A stretch of DNA of 64,000 nt, taken from NCBI GenBank assembly GCA_027574665.1, contig CM050648.1, positions 141,980,175 through 142,044,174 on the forward strand, written 5' to 3'. The notes below the pieces were generated by a model. The model was not told where the DNA came from. It saw only the letters and a program-made list of their open reading frames with translations, and did not search any database. This DNA comes from Rhynochetos jubatus (lineage: Eukaryota; Chordata; Aves; Eurypygiformes; Rhynochetidae). Positions 3,746 to 64,000 of the stretch are shown here, in pieces; the stretch's first letter is position 1; each line of letters begins with the position of its first letter. The translations under genes and the position numbers were made by a program.

Positions 3746-6700
3746 GTGGGCTTACATTTTCTATACTTTTCTGTATTCTGCTTCTGCTTTTCTGTGCTCT
3801 GCTAGCTGCGAATCAACCTCCGAAGCAAACCCTGCAGCTTCTAGGGTGTGGCTTTCTCTGATGCTGCATGAATCAGATAAGGAAAAATAGAGTTAAGAAA
3901 AGCCTTTCCTTACCTCCTCTAAACTTCCCTCGGTGCCTGCGTTATGTTGAAGCTAAGCTTAAGGAAGCCTTTGACTTTGTATACAAATTAAATCCAGTTG
4001 TGTTTAAATTAACTGTTTCAGGTTGCATGCCTTAATTTACATGCTTGCCCTTCATTTCTCATAGTGATTAGGGAGTGACTAGCAGGATACAGTGCATGAT
4101 ACCATCTACCTGGCATTTACAATAGCTAAAAACTGTGCTGTGTAGTGTATGTTTGCAAATTGGACATATCCTATGCTCTGTATTCAATCTGTTGGCTAAA
4201 CAATACAGCGCTCTGGAAGAAGGGCTTTTTTTTTTTTTCCCCCTGTGTTTCCCTGCAAAGCAGAAGAAAATTAGCAATTTAACCTCTTTTTTAAAGGGGA
4301 AAATATAGACATTTTAATATAAAATATTGCTGAAGCAGAGCAATGATGCTTGGAGGCATGAGACAAAAGAGTAATGAAAACCAGTTCTTAGCTGGCAGAA
4401 GCGTATCAATAAATTACCAATCTGCTCTTTAGTTTATGCACAGATTAGTCTGCTTTAAAATAAACAACTAGTAGTCTTAAGGTTGTGTCTACAAAAATGC
4501 CAAGAATCTGTAATTTCTACAGTATCTTTTTCTCACTAAAATATACAAAATCTATGTTTATCTACATTTTGCAATAAATTTCCTCACTATTTATTCTGGT
4601 AGAAGAAGTTATAATCTACAAAACACAGACTGTAAACATTTTGATAGCCTAAAAGTGGAGAGCTTTTTAAAAATATGCCTGATTATTTCTGCTTTTCTTT
4701 TGTAAATAGTTTAGGAATGTATTTTCCACAACAATGGAAAGTCAGAAATTGCCTGTCAGGCTCCCGGTCATACAAAGTAGCATCTTATTGCCTAAGTTGC
4801 CTTGTTGAAATCAAGGAGACAGCTCAAGGAATAAGTAATTTCTTTCCACCCAACGAACAGATACAGTCCAACACTCTGCTCGTTACCTGGTGTTTAGATT
4901 AAGTAATTGAATGATACAAGGTTATGGCAAGTATTTTAGGACCACACCCAGACAGTAATTTAATATGATTTACTCAAAATATACTTGATACAAGTTTTGG
5001 AGGAAATAATTTCTTTTACAAATGTGACTTTTTCAGTAGTGTTATATTATGTCAGTTTGCCTGCAGAGGTTTATTTATTTAGCAAACAAACTAGTTTGTC
5101 GGTTTTATTATTTACCACCTTAGAGACATTGTTGGGACTTCTAGGTGCTACTTAGTAGAAGCAAAAACATAACACTAACGGAGTGCTCCACCCTCCAGGC
5201 TTTCCCCACTGATTGGCAAAAAGATGTTGTTTTCTTTATTTTGCTAAGCAAACAAAATTTTCCCATGTCACAAACATGGGTTATCTCTCCAGTACCAGTT
5301 TTCTGGTGGTGTGAAAAGCTAGTGCTGTGGGTCATGCTCAAGGGGGAGCATCTCCCATACCGGGTCATGCCACAGCACCAACCAGACCCCGGTGCCTGGC
5401 CCCGGAGGTGCAGAGAAGGAGTGGGGCCATGGCGCAGACAACAAGAACCGTGCTGGGAAAGGACGTGGCAGGGAAAGCCGGTTGCATGTGAAATTGCCAG
5501 GCATCTGTTTTCCAAAGTTACTGCTGATGGTTCTTGACAACGGGTTATCATCCTCAGAGGTCAGGGCGCGGCCGGGAAAAGCAGGTCTGTTTTTCTGACA
5601 GGTAGGCTGGCTGCCTGCCTGGGGCGTGTGATATGTATTTGGGAAAGCCTGCCAAGCACAAGAGAAAGAGAAGGATTATCGGCATGGTGATGAGGCAGGC
5701 TCATCTGAACAAGGGTGTGGAAACCACACGGTGAAGCCCACATGAAGAAGAGCGTATTAAATCCCTTGTTTCCTCCACAGCATGGAGGGCAGGCTTGTTA
5801 AAAATAGGCTCATTTCGTAAGCTGCTGCCTCTGCTGGCTATATCCATCTGCCCTTGCTTCAGCTGACTGTTATGATGACACAGGTGAGAAACAGATAAAC
5901 AGAAATTTGCCAGTTTTCCTTATTAGTCAGACAAGCACAAGCACGCACTCAGATCTGACATCTGGAGGATGCCAGGAGCATGTTGCTGTTGTTGATAAAG
6001 ACTGAGACAATGTGCTTCATGGATAATTTTTGAGTCAGGACAACAAATAAGTAGGAGAAGAAAACATCTGCATCAGCCAACTGTGGCAATTGGCCAGATC
6101 TCAAAATATAAAGGTCTTTCTGGCGCAAATGTTTTCTAAACCTATTTTTTACCTTGTTTGGAACGTGATCTAAATCCCCAGAAATTAATGGCAGTCTTTA
6201 AAAGACCCAGTTCAGTAAGGCACTTGAGCAAGTGTGCGTGGCCTCCTGATTGCCACAGGACTGGAGCACAGGGTCAAAGTAAAACGTATTTTAGGACTTT
6301 GCTGGACGGGCACTTGAACTGCAACGTTGCTGCTTCCCAGGTGCCAGGTTTATCTCTGCACTGTGTGGGAATAACATGCAAGTGGGTTTCTGAGATCAGC
6401 CAGAGCTGTGCAAGCTGCAACATCCTAAAAATGCTAAAAGCACGGTGACATCCTTTCCTCTCTGTTCTTATCTGCGATGCCAAAGGCTTGGCGAGGGCTG
6501 AGTGTCTGTTGTGTCTTATGAGCTGCCCACAAATGGCCCACAGATTTTGAGGATCTAAACCAAAATGCCAGCTGAGCCGCATTTTTTCTTAGAAATATTT
6601 TTTCAAGATGTTTGTCTACCAGCTGCAACAGTGTCTATTCCAGACCCATTACGAGACAGAGATAAACAAAACTTGTAGGAGCCAGACTCCCAGCTTGGGT

Positions 6701-51700: not shown

Positions 51701-54700
51701 TTTTCTCAGCGTTTACCACCCTTTCTTAAAAGTGTTTTCGCGCAGGTGCCAGGAACTCCTCCGACTGGTTCAGTATTGCAGGTCGAGCTGGCTGCAATCG
51801 GCTGCATCCAACACAGAGTGGTCTGTGACCTCCTCCACAGAGACCACCCCATAGCCCCACCGCTGCCAAACCCTGCTGCCCAATACAGATCCCAAGCCCC
51901 TCTCAATAATAATAATAATAAAAATAATCTGGCCAACTTCTAGTTCTACATTTTCTCCAATCTGGGGATTTTTGCCTTTACAAGAGCCTTGACATTTCTG
52001 GATACGAATATTTCTGGTATCTTTGGAAGGATCAGCCTGATGAGATTGAAGATAAGGAATCTAAATGACAGCAGGCCCATGCATGTCCCCTGGACACGCT
52101 GCTCCAGAGGGCTTCAGGATGCAAGCAGACTGCTCTGTGCTCTGCGTGGCTCCCACAGACACCAACCACCTCTATGCTGCTTTCAGGTTCTGGACGACAG
52201 CTGAGACCGGCTGAGCCTCCAGGAGATGCTGATGCAGATGCGGATGCAGAGGATGAAGATTCTGTGAGTTTTTTTAGAGTTGGGGGTTTTTGGGATGAGG
52301 GTTTGGCAGTCACCTTGTTAAAATGGGATCTTAAATATTTTCTGTATAGCTAGGTCTTGCTGGTGACTATTTTTCCCCATCAAAAATGTTGATGTTCTGT
52401 TTGGGGTTCTCCTGCCAGTTCAAAAGTCAGAGTGATGCTTCATTATAAAGTGACCTGCTCTTTGCCATGGTTCACCAACGTAAGTTTAATACCAAGGCTT
52501 AGCAAACTATCGCGTGGTCAGTGCCTACAGTAACTTTTCTTTAGTGCTTTAGCCAGTTTAGGTTCCCTATCATTTGACTCCATAAGGAAGCATGCCAAGG
52601 GCTTGTCAGCAGAAATTCCTGCTGGGACTCTTCCATGGTTTGCTTGGTTATAGAGGGCAATAAAGTTTCAAGACACAGGATACAAATGTTAGGTGTGAAA
52701 ATAAAGCAGGGGAGGGAATTTTTATTGCCTTTTTCAATTATTACTGATTGACCTGTCAGTATTTTCAGTGTGTTCAGCCCATAGAGGCATACAGTTCATA
52801 AAGAAAACCAAAATCAGCATACCATTGTTTTTGTCACTCAGGAGTCTGTCCCTTGTGTTCTTGAGTACATCCTTGAACGAGAACTGTGATTTTTCTTGAC
52901 CTAAAGAAAGTGTTATTGGTTATTCTACATTCACCATTACTAGTGAAAGATTTGTACACAGGACACTATGCCTAAGTAGAAAAAACTGTCTTAAAATAAT
53001 GGATCACTGTTTAATGGTGGATGTTCCTTTCCCACCCCTCACTTCTTTTTCACAGGTTAATGAAGTGGCAGTAGAAGACATCCGTCCAAGGCCACAAGGA
53101 TCCTCTCCAGTTTATGAATATTCCATAGAAGAAGAATATTTAAAGGCAAGACACTGAGTTTTCATGCAGAAACGGCTTTTCCAAGTTCATGCAAGAGGCT
53201 TTACAAGTAGCTGAGACTTGTATGTCACGTAACAGGATGTTGTTGCAGACGTACTGTGTTCATGTCCTCACCAAAATCAGAGCCATGTTCATTGACGGCG
53301 TATATTGTACTGGACTTGTTGTTGTCCATGTTCTTGTTCCTTGGCAAAAAATGCATTTTACTTCAATCCTTGAAGGACCTGGTGCAGAGAGGGTCAAGAA
53401 ATCACAATGCTTTTCCTGTTAGAATATTTAACTGGTTTGAATCTAACCAATACATCTTGATATGCTTGGTCTCTGGTGTTCATTTTATGTAGATTTTAGT
53501 ACAATGCAAGGAGGTCTTGGCATCTAATTTGCTATTGGGGTTAGTGTAGTTAAATCATTCACATTATACATCGCACTTGTAGATCCCAGTTTTGCTCTGT
53601 TGCCAGACAGCCCCAGGTCTTAGTCTAAACCAGGCATTTTAGCTGAGGTAGGACTTCTGTTGTGCTTTACAGCAGCATGCCTTCCAAATAGTAAATAATT
53701 GCAAATTATTTTTCAGCTTCAAGAAGAAAACAAAAAATCTGCTACAGACAAATCTAAACAGAGTCATCCACAGGTCAGTCGAAAAGCACTCGGTAGTTTC
53801 AGGCATGTGGTTTGCAAAATAGTCCATTACAACACACAGATGTGGATGGGTGGACAGAGGGAACGCCAAGAGGCAGAGTCACTTTAGACTTGTTTTGACC
53901 GGGAACTTCACAGATTGCCTAGTTGTGGCACAGGCATGAACACTTGTCCTATTTGGGGTCCTTCCATAATTCTGTTTAGCAGTCTTTAACCTTCTCCAGT
54001 TTGACTACAGAACAGCATTAGCTCTTAGTCTAACTTTTCTGGCCCATTGATTCTAATTCAGGTGCTTAACTTCTTCACAGAAAATACAGACTTTCAGCTC
54101 TAAAAGTTTCCATATGTTTCATATTTTAAAATGACAAACTATTTTCCCTATGGCCCTGATCCGGCATAACCCTCACACATGTGCTTAATTTTAATTTAGC
54201 ATAGAAACTCACACTGAACAAGTACATTCTCTATTTTGGGTAATCTTTCTTGAGCTCCTGAAAATATACCTGAGGATATACACAAAATATACACAATTTT
54301 TTACCGTAGGATAAGGCAGAACACTTTGGTACCCATGAATACAAATTATAAATTCACACTTTTTTCTGTATCTAGGAGACAATGGAAGTGACCCTGAAAA
54401 CAGAAGTGGAAGCTGGTGCTAGTGGTTTTAGTGTGACGGGTGGAGGAAATGAAGGAATATTTATTAAAAAAGTACTGAAGGAATCTCCTGCTTCAAAAAT
54501 ATTTAGTCTGAGAGAAGGTACAGTCTGATTTTCTGGTTTTGTTGTTGTTGGGTGTTTTTCTTTGTGTGGGATTTTTTTGTTTGTTTTTGTTTTTTTAAAT
54601 ATAACTTAAAATAATCAAGTTTGCAGCTGTGTGTGCACCTAGATACCTACCTGATCTGTCATCTCTTTAGGTAGTAGAAATAGTAGATCCCAAACCAGCT

Positions 54701-57700
54701 AATATTATGTGTGAACTTAACCTTTCCATATTAATAATTTCAAAGATCAGTTTCTTAAACAATAATGAAATGTGATTTTTTTTTAAAAAATAATTTAAAA
54801 ATTATCTGATTTTCACTGGAGCATTGAAAAAGATACATAGAAAGTAGCACATACACAACTAAAATGAAAAAAACACCCCAGCTCACATGATTAATGAAGA
54901 AGCTGCCTTTGATCCTTTCACAAAATAGTATGCCACAAAACTACAATAAATAATTATTTAAACAAGAATAAAAGTCCAGAGACTGAATATTGAAAAATAT
55001 AAGAAAAAACTTTGTTACTGTCAGGGTCATCGGACACTGGAACAGGTTTTCCAGGGAGATTGTGGAGTCATCATCCTTGGAAATATTTGAAACCTGACTG
55101 CACATAGACATGAACAACTGGCTGTAGCTGACCCTTCCCTGAGAAGGGCAGTTGGACTAGATGACCTCCAGTAGTCCTTTCCAGCCTTAACTCTTCGGTG
55201 ATTCTATTATGTGAACATCATTTTATATTTTAAATAAATAGGATGTAATTTTTGGAGGGTTTTTTTTTGGAGCATTAATTCAACAGAATTTGGGAAACTG
55301 CAAGAAAACACAAAGTAACTAGAATAATGTCTTCTGATTCCACTTACAGGTGATCAGCTTCTAAGTGCTACAATATTTTTCGATAATATCAAATATGAAG
55401 ATGCGCTCAAGATTCTCCAGTATTCCGAGCCATACAGAATCCAGTTCAGCCTGAAAAGAAAAATTGCTGGGAAAGAAGAGCTAGAACACATTCACTCTGC
55501 AGCCCAGTACAAAAAGGAAAGATTAAGCCAGGTAGTTATTTGTTTAATTTACAAAGTTTGGATAATACTGTAGTAATGTGCTGTGGGGAAGCACAGAAGA
55601 AAATAAACAGTTGTCTACTTAAGACATTGGCGTGTGTTTAAACATATTGGCGTGAATATTCATGAGAAGAAAAACAATCCCAAATGATATTTAAAGTTTT
55701 ATAAGTATCCTAGACAAGACTATGGATTTGGGATAAAGCCACCTTCTTGCTTTAGGGTAGAAAAACATTCTTCTGTAGTGAGTCAGTACTTTTTATGTTG
55801 TTAAGTGTCCACAGATAGAACAGGTTCAGATAAGCCTTGTAATATTTATTTTCATTATTTTCCAAAATGTAAAATATCAGTAAATATTTTTCTGAAAAGC
55901 TCATCAATGACATTTACTCTATAAAATATGTATTTAATAACAGATATCTCCATAGGCATGATCTGTTCCTAGGCTTCTATCACATTCAAAGTTATTTTTC
56001 TCTTCATATACATCTATATAAATATTATATATACATTTGTACAGACGTATGTAGAGAGAGATATATAGAAACCTCTATTTATGTCAGTGTTTTGCAAAGA
56101 GCATAAACATTCAGAAATCCACACATTACAGTCATGTATTCCAATTGCTGTATGTAATTTCTCCCTGAATTATATACACCATTTTCAGGATTTTTTTATA
56201 TAACAAGTGGATACTGTGAATAAAAAGCACAATTTTCTACTTATTGTATAGTATGTATTTCATTTTGTGTTGCACTTATATTTCATGTATTTTTAATCTT
56301 CTGACTACTATTTGTTCTTTCAGGAAAAAGAACTCAGTGAGAGCATTCCTGAAGAAACACTACATGTTTCAGGAAAAGCCATTTCAGAAGAAGACAGGGA
56401 AACATTAATTGTAAGCCAAAGGGTAGGAAGAAGCAAGAGACCTAAAAAAGATAGATTGTCTTGGCCAAAATTCCAGTCAATTAAAAATAAAAAGATACTG
56501 GGGCACAGAAGATCTCATAGTACATCAGATGCATATGAGCCTGCTATACAGGATATTTCCCCTACAAGCACAGACACCGAGTCTCAGTTTCAACAAGAAG
56601 TCCATATCAAAGAAAAAAAAGGAAACCAAAAGAAACTGAAGTTCCCTAGCATTGGATTCAAAATGTACAGATCCAAAGCAGAAACACAAGACAAGCAAAA
56701 AAGAGAAATAAAAACTACACTTTTATCTGAAAGAGAAAAAATACATGAAGATATCAGCCTGGAAAATCCCGAAATACTAACTGTTGAATATACTACATCT
56801 CCTGCTTATGAAATTAAACCAGAGGAGGTACATGAAACTTTAACAGAAGACTTAAAAGATATGACAAACGGCATTCCATCTCAAGCAAAAACATGCCCTG
56901 AAGCTGAAATAAGCATTAAAAAAGAAAAAGAGAAGGAATCAATATCAAAATTTACTGTACCTGAAGTACCAGCTATGAAAACACAGATCTCAAAACCCAG
57001 TTTAGAAAAACATGATCTGAAAGAAAGCCCAACTAAACAAACACCACAGACCTCATCAAAAGCCCGAAAAAAGAAACAGAAGGGAACAGCAGATAAGTTA
57101 GAAAGTGGAATTAGCATAGACATGATGGGTCACAAAACACAAGGACCTATACAGGTAAAAGGTCTAGAAATAGGCACTGCTAAAGCAGAATTACACACAG
57201 TGTCTGACACACTGGAAACAGGAGAAAAAGAAGCAGAAGAAGAAACAAAAATACTAACAATTCAGAAAACAAGATTTGGGATTTCACTGCCCAAAAGAAA
57301 AGAGCTAGTGATGGAAAACAAGAAAGCAGAAAGTGACATTCCACATTCAGTACCAGAAATAACCGGTGATACAAGTTCAGAGGATGGCTGTAATTTGGAT
57401 GTGAAATCTCATATACCTCATGGAGATTCAGATGTCTCTAACTGGAAAATACAAACTACAACATTCAAAAGGGCCCAAATATCTAAATTTGACATAAAAA
57501 TGCATAGAGAAGAAAGCAGGGATGAATCAGTAGATTCTGTAAAAAAGGAACACGCAGAAGAAGATATCATGTGCACAAGAGATAAAGCGTTGAAGATGGA
57601 CAGTGGAGTAAAGACAGGAGAAAAAGATGTAGAGGCAAAAGAAAGCAAGTTCAGACTACCAAAGATTAAATTACCTACATTTACCTGGGCAACTACAAAG

Positions 57701-60700
57701 GATGAATCAGGGCAAAAAGTAAGTCAGGAAAGCGAAAGGGATGAAAAACGCTTATCACTACAAGAAGGTGGAAAACCAGAGAGAAGTGAATCAGCAGAAG
57801 AAGGGAAGAACATCAAGGCTGCCAAAATTGACGCAGACGTCAGCCTGCACAAGGTCGACGCCAGCATCCCAGGGGCAGACCTCAAGGCCGACGTTGGCGC
57901 CATCAGCATCGCGGCCCCCGACGTCAAAGTGCCCTCCCTCGAAGGCTCCCTCGAGCTCCAGGCGCCCGAGATAGACCTCAAAGTGCCCTCTGGCGAAGGC
58001 TCCCTTGACGCAGCCGAGCCGGAATCCGTGGGCCTGAAAGGGAAGCTGAAGATGCCCAAGTTCGACAAGCCCAAATTCGGAGTGTCGCCTCCCAAGGCGG
58101 AAGGGCTGGAAGGCGAGGTCAGCCTGCCCACCGCGGAGGTCGAGCTCCCCTCCGCCACCGTGACGGCCGCCGGGGAGGGCCCCGCGCTGGGCATCAAAGC
58201 CGACGTCCCCGGCGCCAAAACCGAAGGGGCCGGCTGGAAGGTGGAGAAGCCCTCCCTCAAAATGCCCAAAGCCGACATCAAAGCTCCCAAGGTGGACATC
58301 AGCCTCCCATCCGTCGACGTCACCCTGCCAAAGGCCGGCGTCGACCTGCCGGCGCCCGAGGCGGCCCTCAGCCTCGAAGGGGAAGCCAAAGCCCCAGAGA
58401 AGGAGGCCGCGAAGACCAAGGACGGCAAGTTCAAGATGCCCAAGTTCGGCATGCCTTCCTTTGGCTGGTCCAGCAGCAGAGAGGCCAAGGGCACCGTGGC
58501 CGCTGATGTGGACGTCAGCCTCAAGGAGCCCCAAGTGACGGTGCCCTCGGGAACCGCCGAAGTCGACGTGACCCTGCCCGCGGCCGACATCCAAGCGCCC
58601 GGCGTGGAGGTGACCGTCGAGACGGCCGCCGGAGGAGACGGCGAGAAAGGTCGATTCAAGATGCCCGACGTCAAGATGCCCAGCGTCAAGCTGCCCAAAG
58701 TCAAAGCTCCCCACGTGCAGGTCAGCCTGCCAAAGGCAGAGGTCTCGCTGCCCAAAGCCCAGGCCGAAGTCCAGGCGGGCGAAGTCGCCCTGCAGGGCCC
58801 CGACGCCGAAGGCGGCCTGGAGGTGTCTGCCGGCAAAGTTGAGGCCGGTGGCATGAAAATACACATGCCGAAAGTCAAGGTGCCCGGCGTGGTCTTCTCC
58901 AAGCCGACCGTCAAGGCTCCCAAAATTGACGCAGACGTCAGCCTCCCAGGGGCAGACCTCAAGGCCGACGTTGGCGCCATCAGCATCGCGGCCCCCGACG
59001 TCAAAGTGCCCTCCCTCGAAGGCTCCCTCGAGCTCCAGGCGCCCGAGATAGACCTCAAAGTGCCCTCTGGCGAAGGCTCCCTTGACGCAGCCGAGCCGGA
59101 ATCCGTGGGCCTGAAAGGGAAGCTGAAGATGCCCAAGTTCGACAAGCCCAAATTCGGAGTGTCGCCTCCCAAGGCGGAAGGGCTGGAAGGCGAGGTCAGC
59201 CTGCCCACCGCGGAGGTCGAGCTCCCCTCCGCCACCGTGACGGCCGCCGGGGAGGGCCCCGCGCTGGGCATCAAAGCCGACGTCCCCGGCGCCAAAACCG
59301 AAGGGGCCGGCTGGAAGGTGGAGAAGCCCTCCCTCAAAATGCCCAAAGCCGACATCAAAGCTCCCAAGGTGGACATCAGCCTCCCATCCGTCGACGTCAC
59401 CCTGCCAAAGGCCGGCGTCGACCTGCCGGCGCCCGAGGCGGCCCTCAGCCTCGAAGGGGAAGCCAAAGCCCCAGAGAAGGAGGCCGCGAAGACCAAGGAC
59501 GGCAAGTTCAAGATGCCCAAGTTCGGCATGCCTTCCTTTGGCTGGTCCAGCAGCAGAGAGGCCAAGGGCACCGTGGCCGCTGATGTGGACGTCAGCCTCA
59601 AGGAGCCCCAAGTGACGGTGCCCTCGGGAACCGCCGAAGTCGACGTGACCCTGCCCGCGGCCGACATCCAAGCGCCCGGCGTGGAGGTGACCGTCGAGAC
59701 GGCCGCCGGAGGAGACGGCGAGAAAGGTCGATTCAAGATGCCCGACGTCAAGATGCCCAGCGTCAAGCTGCCCAAAGTCAAAGCTCCCCACGTGCAGGTC
59801 AGCCTGCCAAAGGCAGAGGTCTCGCTGCCCAAAGCCCAGGCCGAAGTCCAGGCGGGCGAAGTCGCCCTGCAGGGCCCCGACGCCGAAGGCGGCCTGGAGG
59901 TGTCTGCCGGCAAAGTTGAGGCCGGTGGCATGAAAATACACATGCCGAAAGTCAAGGTGCCCGGCGTGGTCTTCTCCAAGCCGACCGTCAAGGCTCCCAA
60001 AATTGACGCAGACGTCAGCCTCCCAGGGGCAGACCTCAAGGCCGACGTTGGCGCCATCAGCATCGCGGCCCCCGACGTCAAAGTGCCCTCCCTCGAAGGC
60101 TCCCTCGAGCTCCAGGCGCCCGAGATAGACCTCAAAGTGCCCTCTGGCGAAGGCTCCCTTGACGCAGCCGAGCCGGAATCCGTGGGCCTGAAAGGGAAGC
60201 TGAAGATGCCCAAGTTCGACAAGCCCAAATTCGGAGTGTCGCCTCCCAAGGCGGAAGGGCTGGAAGGCGAGGTCAGCCTGCCCACCGCGGAGGTCGAGCT
60301 CCCCTCCGCCACCGTGACGGCCGCCGGGGAGGGCCCCGCGCTGGGCATCAAAGCCGACGTCCCCGGCGCCAAAACCGAAGGGGCCGGCTGGAAGGTGGAG
60401 AAGCCCTCCCTCAAAATGCCCAAAGCCGACATCAAAGCTCCCAAGGTGGACATCAGCCTCCCATCCGTCGACGTCACCCTGCCAAAGGCCGGCGTCGACC
60501 TGCCGGCGCCCGAGGCGGCCCTCAGCCTCGAAGGGGAAGCCAAAGCCCCAGAGAAGGAGGCCGCGAAGACCAAGGACGGCAAGTTCAAGATGCCCAAGTT
60601 CGGCATGCCTTCCTTTGGCTGGTCCAGCAGCAGAGAGGCCAAGGGCACCGTGGCCGCTGATGTGGACGTCAGCCTCAAGGAGCCCCAAGTGACGGTGCCC

Positions 60701-63700
60701 TCGGGAACCGCCGAAGTCGACGTGACCCTGCCCGCGGCCGACATCCAAGCGCCCGGCGTGGAGGTGACCGTCGAGACGGCCGCCGGAGGAGACGGCGAGA
60801 AAGGTCGATTCAAGATGCCCGACGTCAAGATGCCCAGCGTCAAGCTGCCCAAAGTCAAAGCTCCCCACGTGCAGGTCAGCCTGCCAAAGGCAGAGGTCTC
60901 GCTGCCCAAAGCCCAGGCCGAAGTCCAGGCGGGCGAAGTCGCCCTGCAGGGCCCCGACGCCGAAGGCGGCCTGGAGGTGTCTGCCGGCAAAGTTGAGGCC
61001 GGTGGCATGAAAATACACATGCCGAAAGTCAAGGTGCCCGGCGTGGTCTTCTCCAAGCCGACCGTCAAGGCTCCCAAAATTGACGCAGACGTCAGCCTCC
61101 CAGGGGCAGACCTCAAGGCCGACGTTGGCGCCATCAGCATCGCGGCCCCCGACGTCAAAGTGCCCTCCCTCGAAGGCTCCCTCGAGCTCCAGGCACCCGA
61201 GATAGACCTCAAAGTGCCCTCTGGCGAAGGCTCCCTTGACGCAGCCGAGCTGGAATCCGTGGGCCTGAAAGGGAAGCTGAAGATGCCCAAGTTCGACAAG
61301 CCCAAATTCGGAGTGTCGCCTCCCAAGGCGGAAGGGCTGGAAGGCGAGGTCAGCCTGCCCACCGCGGAGGTCGAGCTCCCCTCCGCCACCGTGACGGCCG
61401 CCGGGGAGGGCCCCGCGCTGGGCATCAAAGCCGACGTCCCCGGCGCCAAAACCGAAGGGGCCGGCTGGAAGGTGGAGAAGCCCTCCCTCAAAATGCCCAA
61501 AGCCGACATCAAAGCTCCCAAGGTGGACATCAGCCTCCCATCCGTCGACGTCACCCTGCCAAAGGCCGGCGTCGACCTGCTGGCGCCCGAGGCGGCCCTC
61601 AGCCTCGAAGGGGAAGCCAAAGCCCCAGAGAAGGAGGCCGCGAAGACCAAGGACGGCAAGTTCAAGATGCCCAAGTTCGGCATGCCTTCCTTTGGCTGGT
61701 CCAGCAGCAGAGAGGCCAAGGGCACCGTGGCCGCTGATGTGGACGTCAGCCTCAAGGAGCCCCAAGTGACGGTGCCCTCGGGAACCGCCGAAGTCGACGT
61801 GACCCTGCCCGCGGCCGACATCCAAGCGCCCGGCGTGGAGGTGACCGTCGAGACGGCCGCCGGAGGAGACGGCGAGAAAGGTCGATTCAAGATGCCCGAC
61901 GTCAAGATGCCCAGCGTCAAGCTGCCCAAAGTCAAAGCTCCCCACGTGCAGGTCAGCCTGCCAAAGGCAGAGGTCTCGCTGCCCAAAGCCCAGGCCGAAG
62001 TCCAGGCGGGCGAAGTCGCCCTGCAGGGCCCCGACGCCGAAGGCGGCCTGGAGGTGTCTGCCGGCAAAGTTGAGGCCGGTGGCATGAAAATACACATGCC
62101 GAAAGTCAAGGTGCCCGGCGTGGTCTTCTCCAAGCCGACCGTCAAGGCTCCCAAAATTGACGCAGACGTCAGCCTCCCAGGGGCAGACCTCAAGGCCGAC
62201 GTTGGCGCCATCAGCATCGCGGCCCCCGACGTCAAAGTGCCCTCCCTCGAAGGCTCCCTCGAGCTCCAGGCGCCCGAGATAGACCTCAGAGTGCCCTCTG
62301 GCGAAGGCTCCCTTGACGCAGCCGAGCCGGAATCCGTGGGCCTGAAAGGGAAGCTGAAGATGCCCAAGTTCGACAAGCCCAAATTCGGAGTGTCGCCTCC
62401 CAAGGCGGAAGGGCTGGAAGGCGAGGTCAGCCTGCCCACCGCGGAGGTCGAGCTCCCCTCCGCCACCGTGACGGCCGCCGGGGAGGGCCCCGCGCTGGGC
62501 ATCAAAGCCGACGTCCCCGGCGCCAAAACCGAAGGGGCCGGCTGGAAGGTGGAGAAGCCCTCCCTCAAAATGCCCAAAGCCGACATCAAAGCTCCCAAGG
62601 TGGACATCAGCCTCCCATCCGTCGACGTCACCCTGCCAAAGGCCGGCGTCGACCTGCCGGCGCCCGAGGCGGCCCTCAGCCTCGAAGGGGAAGCCAAAGC
62701 CCCAGAGAAGGAGGCCGCGAAGACCAAGGACGGCAAGTTCAAGATGCCCAAGTTCGGCATGCCTTCCTTTGGCTGGTCCAGCAGCAGAGAGGCCAAGGGC
62801 ACCGTGGCCGCTGATGTGGACGTCAGCCTCAAGGAGCCCCAAGTGACGGTGCCCTCGGGAACCGCCGAAGTCGACGTGACCCTGCCCGCGGCCGACATCC
62901 AAGCGCCCGGCGTGGAGGTGACCGTCGAGACGGCCGCCGGAGGAGACGGCGAGAAAGGTCGATTCAAGATGCCCGACGTCAAGATGCCCAGCGTCAAGCT
63001 GCCCAAAGTCAAAGCTCCCCACGTGCAGGTCAGCCTGCCAAAGGCAGAGGTCTCGCTGCCCAAAGCCCAGGCCGAAGTCCAGGCGGGCGAAGTCGCCCTG
63101 CAGGGCCCCGACGCCGAAGGCGGCCTGGAGGTGTCTGCCGGCAAAGTTGAGGCCGGTGGCATGAAAATACACATGCCGAAAGTCAAGGTGCCCGGCGTGG
63201 TCTTCTCCAAGCCGACCGTCAAGGCTCCCAAAATTGACGCAGACGTCAGCCTCCCAGGGGCAGACCTCAAGGCCGACGTTGGCGCCATCAGCATCGCGGC
63301 CCCCGACGTCAAAGTGCCCTCCCTCGAAGGCTCCCTCGAGCTCCAGGCACCCGAGATAGACCTCAAAGTGCCCTCTGGCGAAGGCTCCCTTGACGCAGCC
63401 GAGCCGGAATCCGTGGGCCTGAAAGGGAAGCTGAAGATGCCCAAGTTCGACAAGCCCAAATTCGGAGTGTCGCCTCCCAAGGCGGAAGGGTTGGAAGGCG
63501 AGGTCAGCCTGCCCACCGCGGAGGTCGAGCTCCCCTCCGCCACCGTGACGGCCGCTGGGGAGGGCCCCGCGCTGGGCATCAAAGCCGACGTCCCCGGCGC
63601 CAAAACCGAAGGGGCCGGCTGGAAGGTGGAGAAGCCCTCCCTCAAAATGCCCAAAGCCGACATCAAAGCTCCCAAGGTGGACATCAGCCTCCCATCCGTC

Positions 63701-64000
63701 GACGTCACCCTGCCAAAGGCCGGCGTCGACCTGCCGGCGCCCGAGGCGGCCCTCAGCCTCGAAGGGGAAGCCAAAGCCCCAGAGAAGGAGGCCGCGAAGA
63801 CCAAGGACGGCAAGTTCAAGATGCCCAAGTTCGGCATGCCTTCCTTTGGCTGGTCCAGCAGCAGAGAGGCCAAGGGCACCGTGGCCGCTGATGTGGACGT
63901 CAGCCTCAAGGAGCCCCAAGTGACGGTGCCCTCGGGAACCGCCGAAGTCGACGTGACCCTGCCCGCGGCCGACATCCAAGCGCCCGGCGTGGAGGTGACC
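3691..64000 (+). CDS. AHNAK2: AHNAK2, PDZ-containing giant scaffold protein (3' end outside window)
   Basis: Seven coding exons join in one frame: 3691-3745, 52187-52263, 53056-53145, 53717-53773, 54376-54517, 55350-55531 and 56324-64000. They give about 2,760 residues and the frame is still open at the window edge. The AHNAK family comprises very large cytoplasmic and submembrane scaffolds. They have a PDZ-like domain that can mediate dimerisation and a long repeat region; AHNAK2 has been linked to costameres and to FGF1 secretion. Assignment to AHNAK2 rather than AHNAK or periaxin rests on the MCDCFH N-terminus, the SGRQL and [14 protein letters not shown] linkers, the PDZ segment with [16 protein letters not shown], the post-PDZ motifs [10 protein letters not shown] and [10 protein letters not shown], and the KFKMPKF-type repeats. 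The start is supported by an in-frame TAA at 3679-3681 and an A at -3. The family is clear. The exact exon 1 donor and any untranslated exons are inferred. Confidence 0.93.
9929..9985 (+). mobile_element. CR1 LINE 3' end fragment
   Basis: The text reads as the standard avian CR1 3' terminus: CTCTAGAGGTCCCTTCCAAC, then CCCTACCACTCTGTGA and a second imperfect copy of the terminal TCTGTGA-type octamer. Only the last few dozen bases remain, as usual for 5'-truncated CR1 copies in birds. Confidence 0.7.
10696..10710 (+). repeat. Poly-G tract (15 G)
   Basis: An uninterrupted run of 15 G followed by AAACC. Likely length-variable; no function is evident. Confidence 0.9.
17550..17567 (+). repeat. Poly-A tract (18 A)
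   Basis: A homopolymer run in AT-rich intron sequence. I cannot attach it to a recognisable retroelement. Confidence 0.85.
21498..21519 (+). repeat. Poly-A tract (22 A)
   Basis: A long homopolymer run, followed by GAAAAGA. The sequence upstream does not look like a processed gene copy or a known SINE, so it is recorded only as a simple repeat. Confidence 0.85.
24236..24310. repeat. AT-rich low-complexity patch
   Basis: An almost pure A/T stretch with degenerate TATATAT and ATTATA words. It extends more loosely to about 24480. It resembles a decayed dinucleotide repeat. Confidence 0.7.
26798..26819. repeat. (TA)n microsatellite
   Basis: Eleven uninterrupted AT/TA dinucleotides, flanked by TTTGCA on the left and CATAATATACC on the right. 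Confidence 0.9.
31843..32163 (+). other. Unassigned 106-codon ORF with leader-like N-terminus
   Basis: The frame begins [20 protein letters not shown]. This hydrophobic stretch resembles a signal peptide, and it is followed by several cysteines and two N-x-S/T sites. The same strand stays open in another frame to about 32400. I recognise no family. There is no visible partner domain, promoter or splice context. It could be a decayed mobile-element fragment or a chance ORF in AHNAK2 intron 1; chance is more likely. Confidence 0.15.
35133..35275 (+). mobile_element. MIR/CORE-like SINE remnant
   Basis: The order of words fits an ancient amniote MIR: GCAGCATGGTGCAG, a GGACATCTGGGCT segment, a degenerate CTGCTACCAACTTGCTTTGTGAC core (broken here by mutations), then ACCTTACTTTCTGTGAG. 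It is heavily diverged. The assignment is by eye. Confidence 0.45.
36800..37030 (+). mobile_element. Amniote MIR-type SINE, near full length
   Basis: The left part has AGTGAACCGGGGTGCAAGAC, ACCTGGATTCAA and a decayed TCACATCATGTCTCTG core. The right part has the typical tail words GAAAGCTCTTTGGGG, TGTATATGTACGG and ACCAAAGTATAAATTGTAAT. This left-core-tail order is that of the amniote MIR families frequent in turtles and crocodiles and sparse in birds. Confidence 0.5.
51905..51929 (+). repeat. (AAT)n microsatellite
   Basis: About seven AAT triplets with one interruption, just after a C-rich stretch. Simple repeat; no further role is visible. Confidence 0.85.
52187..52263 (+). CDS. AHNAK2: AHNAK2 coding exon 2, acidic Asp-Ala linker
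   Basis: The acceptor is TGCTGCTTTCAG and the donor is GTGAGT at 52264. The exon is 77 bp: two bases finish the split glycine of exon 1 and 25 codons follow. The peptide is [12 protein letters not shown], then four Asp-Ala pairs, then EDEDS. The SGRQL-P-EP portion matches human AHNAK2 directly after its MCDCFH exon, which ties this exon to the one at 3691. The Asp-Ala run comes from repeated GATGCN hexamers and looks like a lineage-specific microsatellite-type expansion of a linker that is also acidic in mammals. The exon ends in phase 0. Confidence 0.88.
52264..53055 (+). other. AHNAK2: AHNAK2 intron 2 (792 bp)
   Basis: GT-AG, phase 0. The donor is GTGAGT and the acceptor is TTCTTTTTCACAG. 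Nothing else recognisable lies inside. Confidence 0.85.
53056..53145 (+). CDS. AHNAK2: AHNAK2 coding exon 3, [14 protein letters not shown] motif
   Basis: This 90-bp exon has 30 codons, in phase 0 at both ends. It encodes VNEVAVED, then [14 protein letters not shown], then SIEEEYLK. The central block is nearly identical to the human AHNAK2 segment preceding the PDZ domain, so identity and frame are secure. The 5' splice site is unusual: after AAG the intron starts GCAAGA rather than GT. Reading through meets TGA at 53155-53157, and no GT nearby gives a sensible junction, so a GC-AG intron is the best model. The peptide continues as LQEENKK in exon 4, and human AHNAK2 also has LQE at this point. 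Confidence 0.88.
53146..53716 (+). other. AHNAK2: AHNAK2 intron 3 (571 bp), probable GC-AG intron
   Basis: The intron starts GCAAGA after AAG and ends TTATTTTTCAG. GC donors are a known minor class that usually keep a strong AAG-GCAAGT-like context, as here. Phase 0. Confidence 0.75.
53717..53773 (+). CDS. AHNAK2: AHNAK2 coding exon 4, charged linker
   Basis: This 57-bp exon has 19 codons, phase 0 at both ends. The acceptor is TTATTTTTCAG and the donor is CAG-GTCAGT. It encodes [19 protein letters not shown], a hydrophilic linker between the VYEY motif and the PDZ domain. The human counterpart, as I recall it, begins LQED and is longer, with no other close similarity. Support comes from the splice sites, the phase and the position between two certain exons. 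Confidence 0.8.
53774..54375 (+). other. AHNAK2: AHNAK2 intron 4 (602 bp)
   Basis: GT-AG, phase 0. The donor is GTCAGT and the acceptor is TTTTTTCTGTATCTAG. It holds a possible old repeat fragment at 54150-54200. Confidence 0.85.
54150..54200. repeat. Possible ancient amniote repeat fragment
   Basis: The words TGGCCCTGATCCGGCATAAC and CACATGTGCTTAATTTTAA resemble the ends of an old non-autonomous element common in turtles and crocodiles. That element carries a GGCCCTGATCCTGCAAA end and a CATGTGCTTAACTTTAAGCA body. The fragment is short and the assignment rests on memory of that pattern. Confidence 0.3.
54376..54517 (+). CDS. AHNAK2: AHNAK2 coding exon 5, PDZ N-terminal half
   Basis: This 142-bp exon is in phase 0 at entry and phase 1 at exit, with donor GTACAG. 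It encodes residues 94-140 plus one base. It contains the first PDZ strand ([14 protein letters not shown]), the carboxylate-loop region around GFSVTGGG, and the next strand [15 protein letters not shown]. This matches AHNAK2 closely; the [13 protein letters not shown] block is almost identical to the human protein as I recall it. The reading frame ends LREG, with the glycine codon split across the intron, as in the family. Confidence 0.95.
54518..55349 (+). other. AHNAK2: AHNAK2 intron 5 (832 bp)
   Basis: GT-AG, phase 1. It splits the glycine codon of the PDZ LREGD motif. The donor is GTACAG and the acceptor is TTCCACTTACAG. It contains a CR1 3' fragment at 55005-55208 and T-rich tracts near 54.56-54.60 kb. 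Confidence 0.9.
55005..55208 (+). mobile_element. CR1 LINE 3' end fragment
   Basis: Characteristic CR1 words appear in order: GGACACTGGAACAGGTTTTC, CCAGGGAGATTGTGGAGTC, GGAAATATTTGAAACCTGAC, GGGCAGTTGGACTAGATGAC, CTCCAGTAGTCCTTTCCAGC and the terminal GGTGATTCTAT. It is a 5'-truncated, moderately diverged copy in the same orientation as the gene, inserted into intron 5. Confidence 0.88.
55350..55531 (+). CDS. AHNAK2: AHNAK2 coding exon 6, PDZ C-terminal half
   Basis: This 182-bp exon enters in phase 1 and leaves in phase 0, with donor CAG-GTAGTT. It encodes [38 protein letters not shown] and a charged tail ending ERLSQ. Exons 5 and 6 add up to 324 bp, exactly 108 codons. The [16 protein letters not shown] block is the most AHNAK2-specific signature in the window. 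Confidence 0.95.
55532..56323 (+). other. AHNAK2: AHNAK2 intron 6 (792 bp)
   Basis: GT-AG, phase 0. The donor is GTAGTT and the acceptor is TTTGTTCTTTCAG. AT-rich, with a TATA-like patch near 56.0-56.07 kb; no other element is recognised. Confidence 0.9.
56324..57823 (+). other. AHNAK2: Unique pre-repeat region of AHNAK2 (residues 202-701)
   Basis: This is a lysine/glutamate/serine/threonine-rich, probably disordered tail following the PDZ domain. Conserved AHNAK2 landmarks are [10 protein letters not shown] (from residue 246), [12 protein letters not shown] (263-274) and a following SPTSTDTES. Basic clusters KRPKKDR (239-245) and RKKKQKG (449-455) could act as nuclear localisation signals. 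Degenerate AHNAK-type repeat motifs occur at KFPSIGFKM (307-315), in a [12 protein letters not shown] segment and at [14 protein letters not shown] (643-656). Codons are mostly A- or T-ending, unlike the array that follows. Confidence 0.9.
56324..64000 (+). CDS. AHNAK2: AHNAK2 giant last exon (visible 2,559 codons)
   Basis: The frame starts in phase 0 after TTTGTTCTTTCAG and is open for 7,677 bp to the window edge. No stop or donor is needed. A single huge terminal exon carrying all repeats is the hallmark gene structure of AHNAK and AHNAK2. The first 500 codons (residues 202-701) are unique sequence. From residue 702 the exon is a 359-residue tandem repeat. Base composition changes sharply between these two parts. 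The C-terminal region, stop codon and 3' UTR lie outside the window, so total repeat number and protein length are unknown. Confidence 0.95.
57824..58921 (+). repeat. Array unit 1 (1,098 bp, residues 702-1067)
   Basis: This is the first unit, preceded by unique AT-rich coding sequence. It differs from all others by a 21-bp in-frame insertion at 57848-57868, encoding HKVDASI after KIDADVSL. It also has CTG instead of CTC for the leucine before the insertion. Otherwise it matches unit 2 as far as I can see. Confidence 0.95.
58922..59998 (+). repeat. Array unit 2 (1,077 bp, residues 1068-1426)
   Basis: A consensus unit. No difference from unit 3 was found by eye. Confidence 0.95.
59999..61075 (+). 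repeat. Array unit 3 (1,077 bp, residues 1427-1785)
   Basis: A consensus unit, apparently identical to unit 2. Confidence 0.95.
61076..62152 (+). repeat. Array unit 4 (1,077 bp, residues 1786-2144)
   Basis: Three changes from consensus: G to A at 61195 (silent, shared with unit 6), C to T at 61251 (Pro to Leu) and C to T at 61581 (Pro to Leu). All three are CpG transitions. Confidence 0.95.
62153..63229 (+). repeat. Array unit 5 (1,077 bp, residues 2145-2503)
   Basis: One change from consensus: A to G at 62289, turning a Lys codon into Arg in the DLKVPSG segment. Confidence 0.95.
63230..64000 (+). repeat. Array unit 6, partial (771 bp, residues 2504-2760)
   Basis: Cut by the window edge after 257 codons, at the end of a complete codon. 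Three silent changes: G to A at 63349 (as in unit 4), C to T at 63491 and C to T at 63556. Confidence 0.95.

Follow-up and report, generated by a model that had tools for sequence, protein, structure and literature searches.

The window considered here, a stretch of 64,000 nucleotides from Rhynochetos jubatus (141980175-142044174 of contig CM050648.1, in a GCA_027574665.1 assembly of 1.33 Gb and 148 contigs), ends within a giant coding exon that carries a tandem array of long, near-identical units (Table 1). Positions past the window are given as extended coordinates, in which 64001 is the first base of L001; the analysis extended to the next 40 kb of the contig. The frame of the giant exon comprises 7,263 codons and runs to a stop at extended coordinate 78113-78115 (in L002), with the array taking up 5,268 of these codons, or about 73% of the exon. 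Upstream of it are a short coding exon, whose translation we take to resemble the N-terminus of AHNAK2, and two exons that together encode a PDZ domain. By eye, the short exon seems to have a GC donor (AAAG/GCAAGA at 53146) and not GT. Pfam returned no families for the N-terminal piece and none for the second PDZ exon alone. When the two PDZ exons are joined, the nearest solved relative is AHNAK2 (4cn0; E 1.2e-41, 143 bits), with periaxin second (4cmz; E 1.3e-29, 105 bits). An intertwined PDZ dimer has been reported for periaxin, with AHNAK2 given as the only similar case (PMC7072810).

The locus thus combines an AHNAK2-type PDZ domain, a very large repeat-bearing exon and a PLD4 neighbor, the evidence for the neighborhood consisting of one PLD4-like exon on the opposite strand. 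In human, PLD4 presumably adjoins AHNAK2 as well. Accordingly, membership in the AHNAK family, as proposed in a sequence-only reading of the window, is borne out, and the array most probably represents the central repeats of AHNAK2, a giant scaffold protein headed by a PDZ domain, as judged from sequence. The K-x-x-M-P-x-F type modules of the array are, we assume, akin to the repeats of mammalian AHNAK2. The unit of about 165 residues known from mammalian AHNAK2 is absent, the unit here being 359 residues; that shorter unit describes the mammalian protein and is taken as non-defining for the orthologue. A PDZ search of the bird's own genome scored 13 candidates, namely the two exons of AHNAK2 and 11 matches that were no better than E 0.07, so that among the candidates scored the assembly offers no sign of another PDZ of AHNAK2 or periaxin type. 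Periaxin may be missing from the assembly, or may be too diverged or too split for a PDZ search.

Table 1. Features of the AHNAK2 locus (window positions unless marked as extended or given on another segment)
Feature	Position	Strand	Basis or remark
Upstream AHNAK2 coding exon (...EEEYLK)	53056..53145	+	Translation, splice signals by eye; acceptor CAG
PDZ exon, first part	54376..54516 (approximate ends)	+	Match to AHNAK2 PDZ (PDB 4cn0)
PDZ exon, second part (...RLSQ)	55350..55531	+	Match to AHNAK2 PDZ (PDB 4cn0)
Giant coding exon, in-window part	56324..64000	+	Acceptor ttctttcag/GAAAAAG; open frame
N-terminal flank of giant exon, AT-rich	56324..57814	+	GC4 0.19 (measured over 56312-57820)
Partial, diverged copy (relic) of the 359-residue unit	57248..57721	+	42.7 bits; GC4 0.22
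Array 5′ edge	57815..57866	+	Similarity begins ~57815; by eye and lag mismatches
Unit 1-specific insertion (21 bp)	about 57846-57866	+	By eye
Unit 1	57867..58943	+	Identical to consensus
Unit 2	58944..60020	+	Identical to consensus
Unit 3	60021..61097	+	Identical to consensus
Unit 4	61098..62174	+	3 variants: 61195 G>A silent; 61251 C>T P>L; 61581 C>T P>L
Unit 5	62175..63251	+	1 variant: 62289 A>G K>R
Unit 6	63252..64000	+	749 of 1,077 bp within window; variants 63349, 63491, 63556, all silent
In-phase relics after core	73672 to about 76222 (extended)	+	Unit search and in-phase alignment
PLD4-like exon, 3′ of AHNAK2	L003:8144-8500	-	PLD4 E 5.5e-19 vs PLD3 4.7e-06

Anatomy and near-identity of the array

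All array data derive from one assembly of one species, in which the whole array is composed of 14 complete units of 1,077 bp (57867-72944 extended) and 728 bp of a fifteenth. It ends at extended coordinate 73672, and so extends over 14.68 units and 15.8 kb of one exon, with a period of 359 codons and a frame that remains open across every unit. The sequence-only reading had described five complete units and most of a sixth, all inside one exon, and this holds for the window (57867-63251, then 749 of 1,077 bp). The array is nevertheless larger than the stretch to 64000 noted there, as units 7-14 and the 728 bp of unit 15 lie beyond the window end in L001. The exact period that had been claimed stands from about 57867 onward; it fails before that point, where similarity already begins (~57815) and unit 1 carries its private insertion of 21 bp. 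The "about seven" differences estimated for the window are exactly seven variant bases (three in unit 4, one in unit 5 and three in unit 6), and at a lag of 1,077 there are 11 mismatching pairs from 57867 to the window end. A chance repeat is ruled out, as four other lags over the same stretch give only 25-32% identity, and so is simple slippage, the unit being 1,077 bp of complex sequence. The longest period handled by Tandem Repeats Finder is 500, and hence the array lies outside its reach.

Each unit comprises four related modules, which start at residues 0, 131, 206 and 274 of the rotated unit, and in each of the six module pairs the score is 7 to 11 standard deviations higher than for shuffled sequence. 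The repeat unit obtained two Pfam matches, both below the cut-off (E 0.0033 and 0.21), and the window obtained no Rfam match at the gathering score. Two units folded as a single sequence gave a mean pLDDT of 33.6, and no structural reading is drawn from it. On the minus strand, two antisense frames (window 57724-63975) are open for ~2,060-2,090 codons across the array; their length follows from the repetition of a unit with no stop codon in either frame, and signs of a gene are absent.

The 14 complete units differ by 11 variant bases at eight sites. Eight units are identical to the consensus (1, 2, 3, 8, 9, 10, 12 and 13), and the 728 bp of unit 15 are likewise free of variants. The mean pairwise difference among the complete units is 1.48 bases (pi 0.0014), and 29 of the 91 pairs are identical. 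The mutation rate of birds is ~2e-9 per site and year, at which this pi corresponds to roughly 0.3 million years between units. The variants are all transitions, G/C>A/T relative to the consensus at seven of the eight sites, and six of the eight occupy CpG positions, which make up 196 of the 1,077 positions of the unit (18%; P 0.0007). It looks as if CpGs mutate in the core but their losses fail to accumulate. Half of the eight sites (four) are silent and the other four change a residue, compared with transition opportunities at 360 silent and 717 replacement positions (~1:2 expected). Six of the variable sites are private to one unit, and the other two are common to non-adjacent units, namely site 98 (units 4, 6 and 11) and site 115 (units 5 and 14).

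Among units 1-14, all eight variable sites fall within a 386-bp arc (unit positions 98-484; P 0.006 after the fact, and 0.005 with CpG positions weighted), while the remaining 690 bp of the unit hold no variant across the 14 complete units. This clustering is outside what the copying model described below explains.

Decayed copies and base composition at the edges

A search of the flanks of the exon with a doubled unit as query identified diverged copies on both sides. The C-terminal flank holds two nearly full-length copies (92.5 and 91.0 bits) and four further stretches (15.3, 12.0, 2.9 and 1.6 bits), the last two of which are no evidence by themselves. The N-terminal flank holds one partial copy (42.7 bits), plus two stretches below 1 bit. 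Among 200 shuffled flanks used as a control, 177 gave some score, with a maximum of 3.2 bits. Alignment of the C-terminal flank to the unit, in register with the point where the array ends, covers 849 residues at 32.8% identity with a score of 785, and 200 shuffles reach at most 120. Eighteen rotations at 20-residue steps score 681-771, with the best (771) at 180, beside the true phase of 187. Because the flank contains more than two units, these scores differ little, and the argument for phase thus rests mainly on the collinear alignment that starts at the edge. The 3′ edge of the core falls within a unit, whose first 728 bases belong to the core and whose remainder is the old, diverged continuation.

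These in-phase diverged copies show that the 359-residue unit is old and that several copies existed long ago. It is therefore not a newly made higher-order unit. Transfer of the unit from a paralogue is not supported, since copies of the unit in phase with the array persist as relics within the exon itself.

The edges of the repeat coincide with a switch in composition. GC4 rises from 0.19 in the N-terminal flank to 0.88 in the core and falls to 0.22 in the C-terminal flank, and the ratio of observed to expected CpG in these three parts is 0.18, 0.84 and 0.21, respectively. Six relic stretches have GC4 values of 0.15, 0.24, 0.20, 0.26 and 0.18 on the C side and 0.22 on the N side; three of the six are weak as relics (15.3, 12.0 and 1.6 bits), and the two strong C-side relics stand at 0.24 and 0.20. 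A search over codons 400-699 and 5,600-5,999 of the frame placed the two best-fit change points in GC3 at 57803 and 73679, no more than ~65 bp from where the repeats begin and end. All 15 of the 1-kb windows in the array exceed 60% GC, compared with none of 118 in the surroundings (73 kb upstream and 45.9 kb downstream). If the flank composition is the bias-free balance, the scaled bias is ~3.3, a rough figure that assumes balance and no codon selection. GC3 and GC4 are thus raised in the homogenized stretch relative to the diverging copies beside it, as expected under GC-biased gene conversion, and raised GC3 in converting compared with diverging regions is a published sign of conversion (PMC2720389).

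Probable exchange between units and its alternatives

Taken together, the data are best explained by a continuing, probably GC-biased, exchange between units that maintains a core whose edges escape, a reading to which we assign a probability of roughly 0.7. The ancestral gene would have carried many copies of a 359-residue unit built from four related modules. In the core, ~14.7 copies would be kept near identical by repeated meiotic exchange, through gene conversion and unequal crossing-over, while copies past the edge of the core would have left this exchange, drifted to 33% protein identity and come to share the AT-rich codon composition of their surroundings. Within the core, G/C is most likely favored by mismatch repair as conversion proceeds, and such repair would account for fourfold sites that are 88% GC and for the retention of CpG amid AT-rich, CpG-poor surroundings. 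Within the genome the units are near-identical at silent sites, as expected under concerted evolution. A bias toward G/C is the most parsimonious account of the composition; as polarizing the substitutions would require an outgroup, the case for this bias is made from composition. The G/C>A/T changes at seven of the eight sites fit mutation, and by themselves are no sign of conversion bias.

The shared variants also bear on exchange. In simulations of independent mutation at equal rates, a site hit three times together with a non-CpG site hit twice occurred in none of 20,000 trials, and under extreme rate variation the same double sharing arose in 0.6%. Copying models were simulated with one run per setting, against observed targets of 1.48 for the mean difference, eight variable sites and 29 identical pairs. 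With random donors, nine copy events per mutation gave a mean difference of 1.7, 5.3 variable sites and 35 identical pairs, and a ratio of 6 gave 2.6, 7.7 and 25, respectively. Donors restricted to neighbors fit no better, with 1.5, 3.7 and 42 at a ratio of 40, and 3.4, 8.5 and 29 at a ratio of 20. These simulations bracket the data, and no single ratio among them matched all three measures.

A single recent amplification, in which an already GC-rich unit was multiplied about fifteen-fold within the last few hundred thousand years and only mutation has acted since, is unlikely, although it is the strongest of the alternatives. It would explain the very low pi, the identity of 8 of the 14 units, the privacy of 6 of the 8 variable sites, and the presence of more rare variants than steady copying yields in the model. 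The founder would, however, need a GC4 near 0.88 when its in-phase neighbors in the same exon had about 0.2; the variants common to units 4, 6 and 11 and to units 5 and 14 demand later transfer or recurrent mutation; and the in-phase relics attest to several copies long ago. As a one-off event accounts for the identity but not for the GC contrast, that contrast with the in-phase relics and the variants common to non-adjacent units favor continuing exchange. Thus, where the sequence-only reading had left the choice between amplification and continuing exchange, the latter is preferred, and the excess of rare variants leaves room for a possible recent pulse on top of it.

An assembly artefact, by which near-identical units were multiplied or collapsed and their number, order and identity are partly wrong, is improbable. 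The unit variants are distinct, all transitions and mostly at CpG, and typical long-read errors are unlike CpG-biased transitions. The frame is also intact over 7,263 codons, and the GC contrast and the relics are independent of copy number. Weighing on the other side, misassembly is common in such coding arrays, and the mouse reference is reported to give Ahnak2 the wrong number of copies (PMC12903361).

It is most improbable that the likeness of the units is due to selection, whether for uniformity of the repeated protein sequence or for particular codons. A scaffold might benefit from a uniform repeat of 359 residues, and the core makes up about 73% of the exon's codons. Silent sites, however, vary no more than replacement sites do (four of the eight replace a residue, numbers too small to exclude weak constraint), such that protein selection alone is insufficient for the identity of the units, and without exchange selection cannot synchronize the silent sites of 14 units. 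The earlier claim of recent homogenization, and not just selection on the protein, is therefore upheld.

Continuing exchange, if GC-biased, raises a further and more tentative reading, which we consider rather unlikely as it stands: that most of the protein sequence is dictated less by selection than by a bias in meiotic repair, with exchange in the core of ~14.7 units pushing all positions, including replacement positions, toward G/C. If so, the same unit would be an Ala/Lys/Val/Pro/Gly-rich polymer in the core and a Ser/Lys/Glu/Thr-rich one just outside, with the border between the two polymer types falling inside a single unit. 

Within the preferred account, we infer that exchange is ongoing and GC-biased and that copy number varies among individuals. 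The array is likely a copy-number polymorphism, at 359 residues per step, in a scaffold protein. It may also defeat short-read and reference assemblies. Furthermore, the homogenized core and the decayed copies of one unit share one exon, one region and one promoter, which removes the usual confounders of regional composition, expression and gene age. The array is thus suited to asking whether exchange between copies raises GC, and whether the bias reaches the protein sequence.

Comparison with known systems

The locus resembles mammalian AHNAK2 in a PDZ head closest to that protein, a giant exon and a PLD4-like exon on its 3′ side, and differs in the unit, which is of ~165 residues in mammals and here of 359 residues in four modules. 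Human AHNAK2 has about 24 repeats of ~165 residues, which a review terms "highly conserved" (PMC8833689); for this reason, it is doubtful that mammalian AHNAK2 units diverge more from one another than do the units here, as the sequence-only reading had held. An analysis with GENECONV reported conversion between human haplotypes in 1 of 42 genes, which was not AHNAK2, although haplotypes were compared there and not repeat units (PMC4969671). We found no literature linking AHNAK2 to concerted evolution, and keyword searches found no report on an avian AHNAK2 array.

Homogenized, GC-rich coding arrays are already a known kind. The coding VNTRs surveyed in mouse are likewise near-identical tandem units that are richer in GC than the average of their open reading frames (PMC12903361). 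The longest unit of that survey, in Eppk1, is 984-990 bp, which the present unit exceeds, and Ubc, whose 228-bp unit is called highly conserved, has a quoted pi of 0.009, about six-fold above the 0.0014 within this array (PMC12903361). The filaggrin repeats of primates are also long coding units in one exon, with a copy number that changes by lineage; there, however, the nucleotide diversity is high, and the authors consider gene conversion unlikely and argue for a birth-and-death process (PMC5225520). The ensemble repeats of Argiope spidroins share the extreme homogenization within a gene, to the point of perfect protein identity among the units of one gene, but several of those genes have repetitive introns, whereas the array here is intron-free (PMC9779670).

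With respect to composition, there is a likeness to the mammalian pairs BMP8A/B, DDX19A/B and TUBG1/2, in which gene conversion is long-lasting and third-position GC is raised in the homogenized stretch, significantly so in DDX19A/B and TUBG1/2 and not in BMP8A/B (PMC2720389). Those are pairs of genes, whereas here the homogenized stretch is a tandem array in one exon, and the contrast in GC4 (0.88 vs about 0.2) lies between copies of one unit within it. What is new here is the 359-residue unit together with decayed copies in the same exon that serve as an internal control. Different, too, are a divergence below the figure for Ubc and the presence of decayed, in-phase copies of opposite composition.
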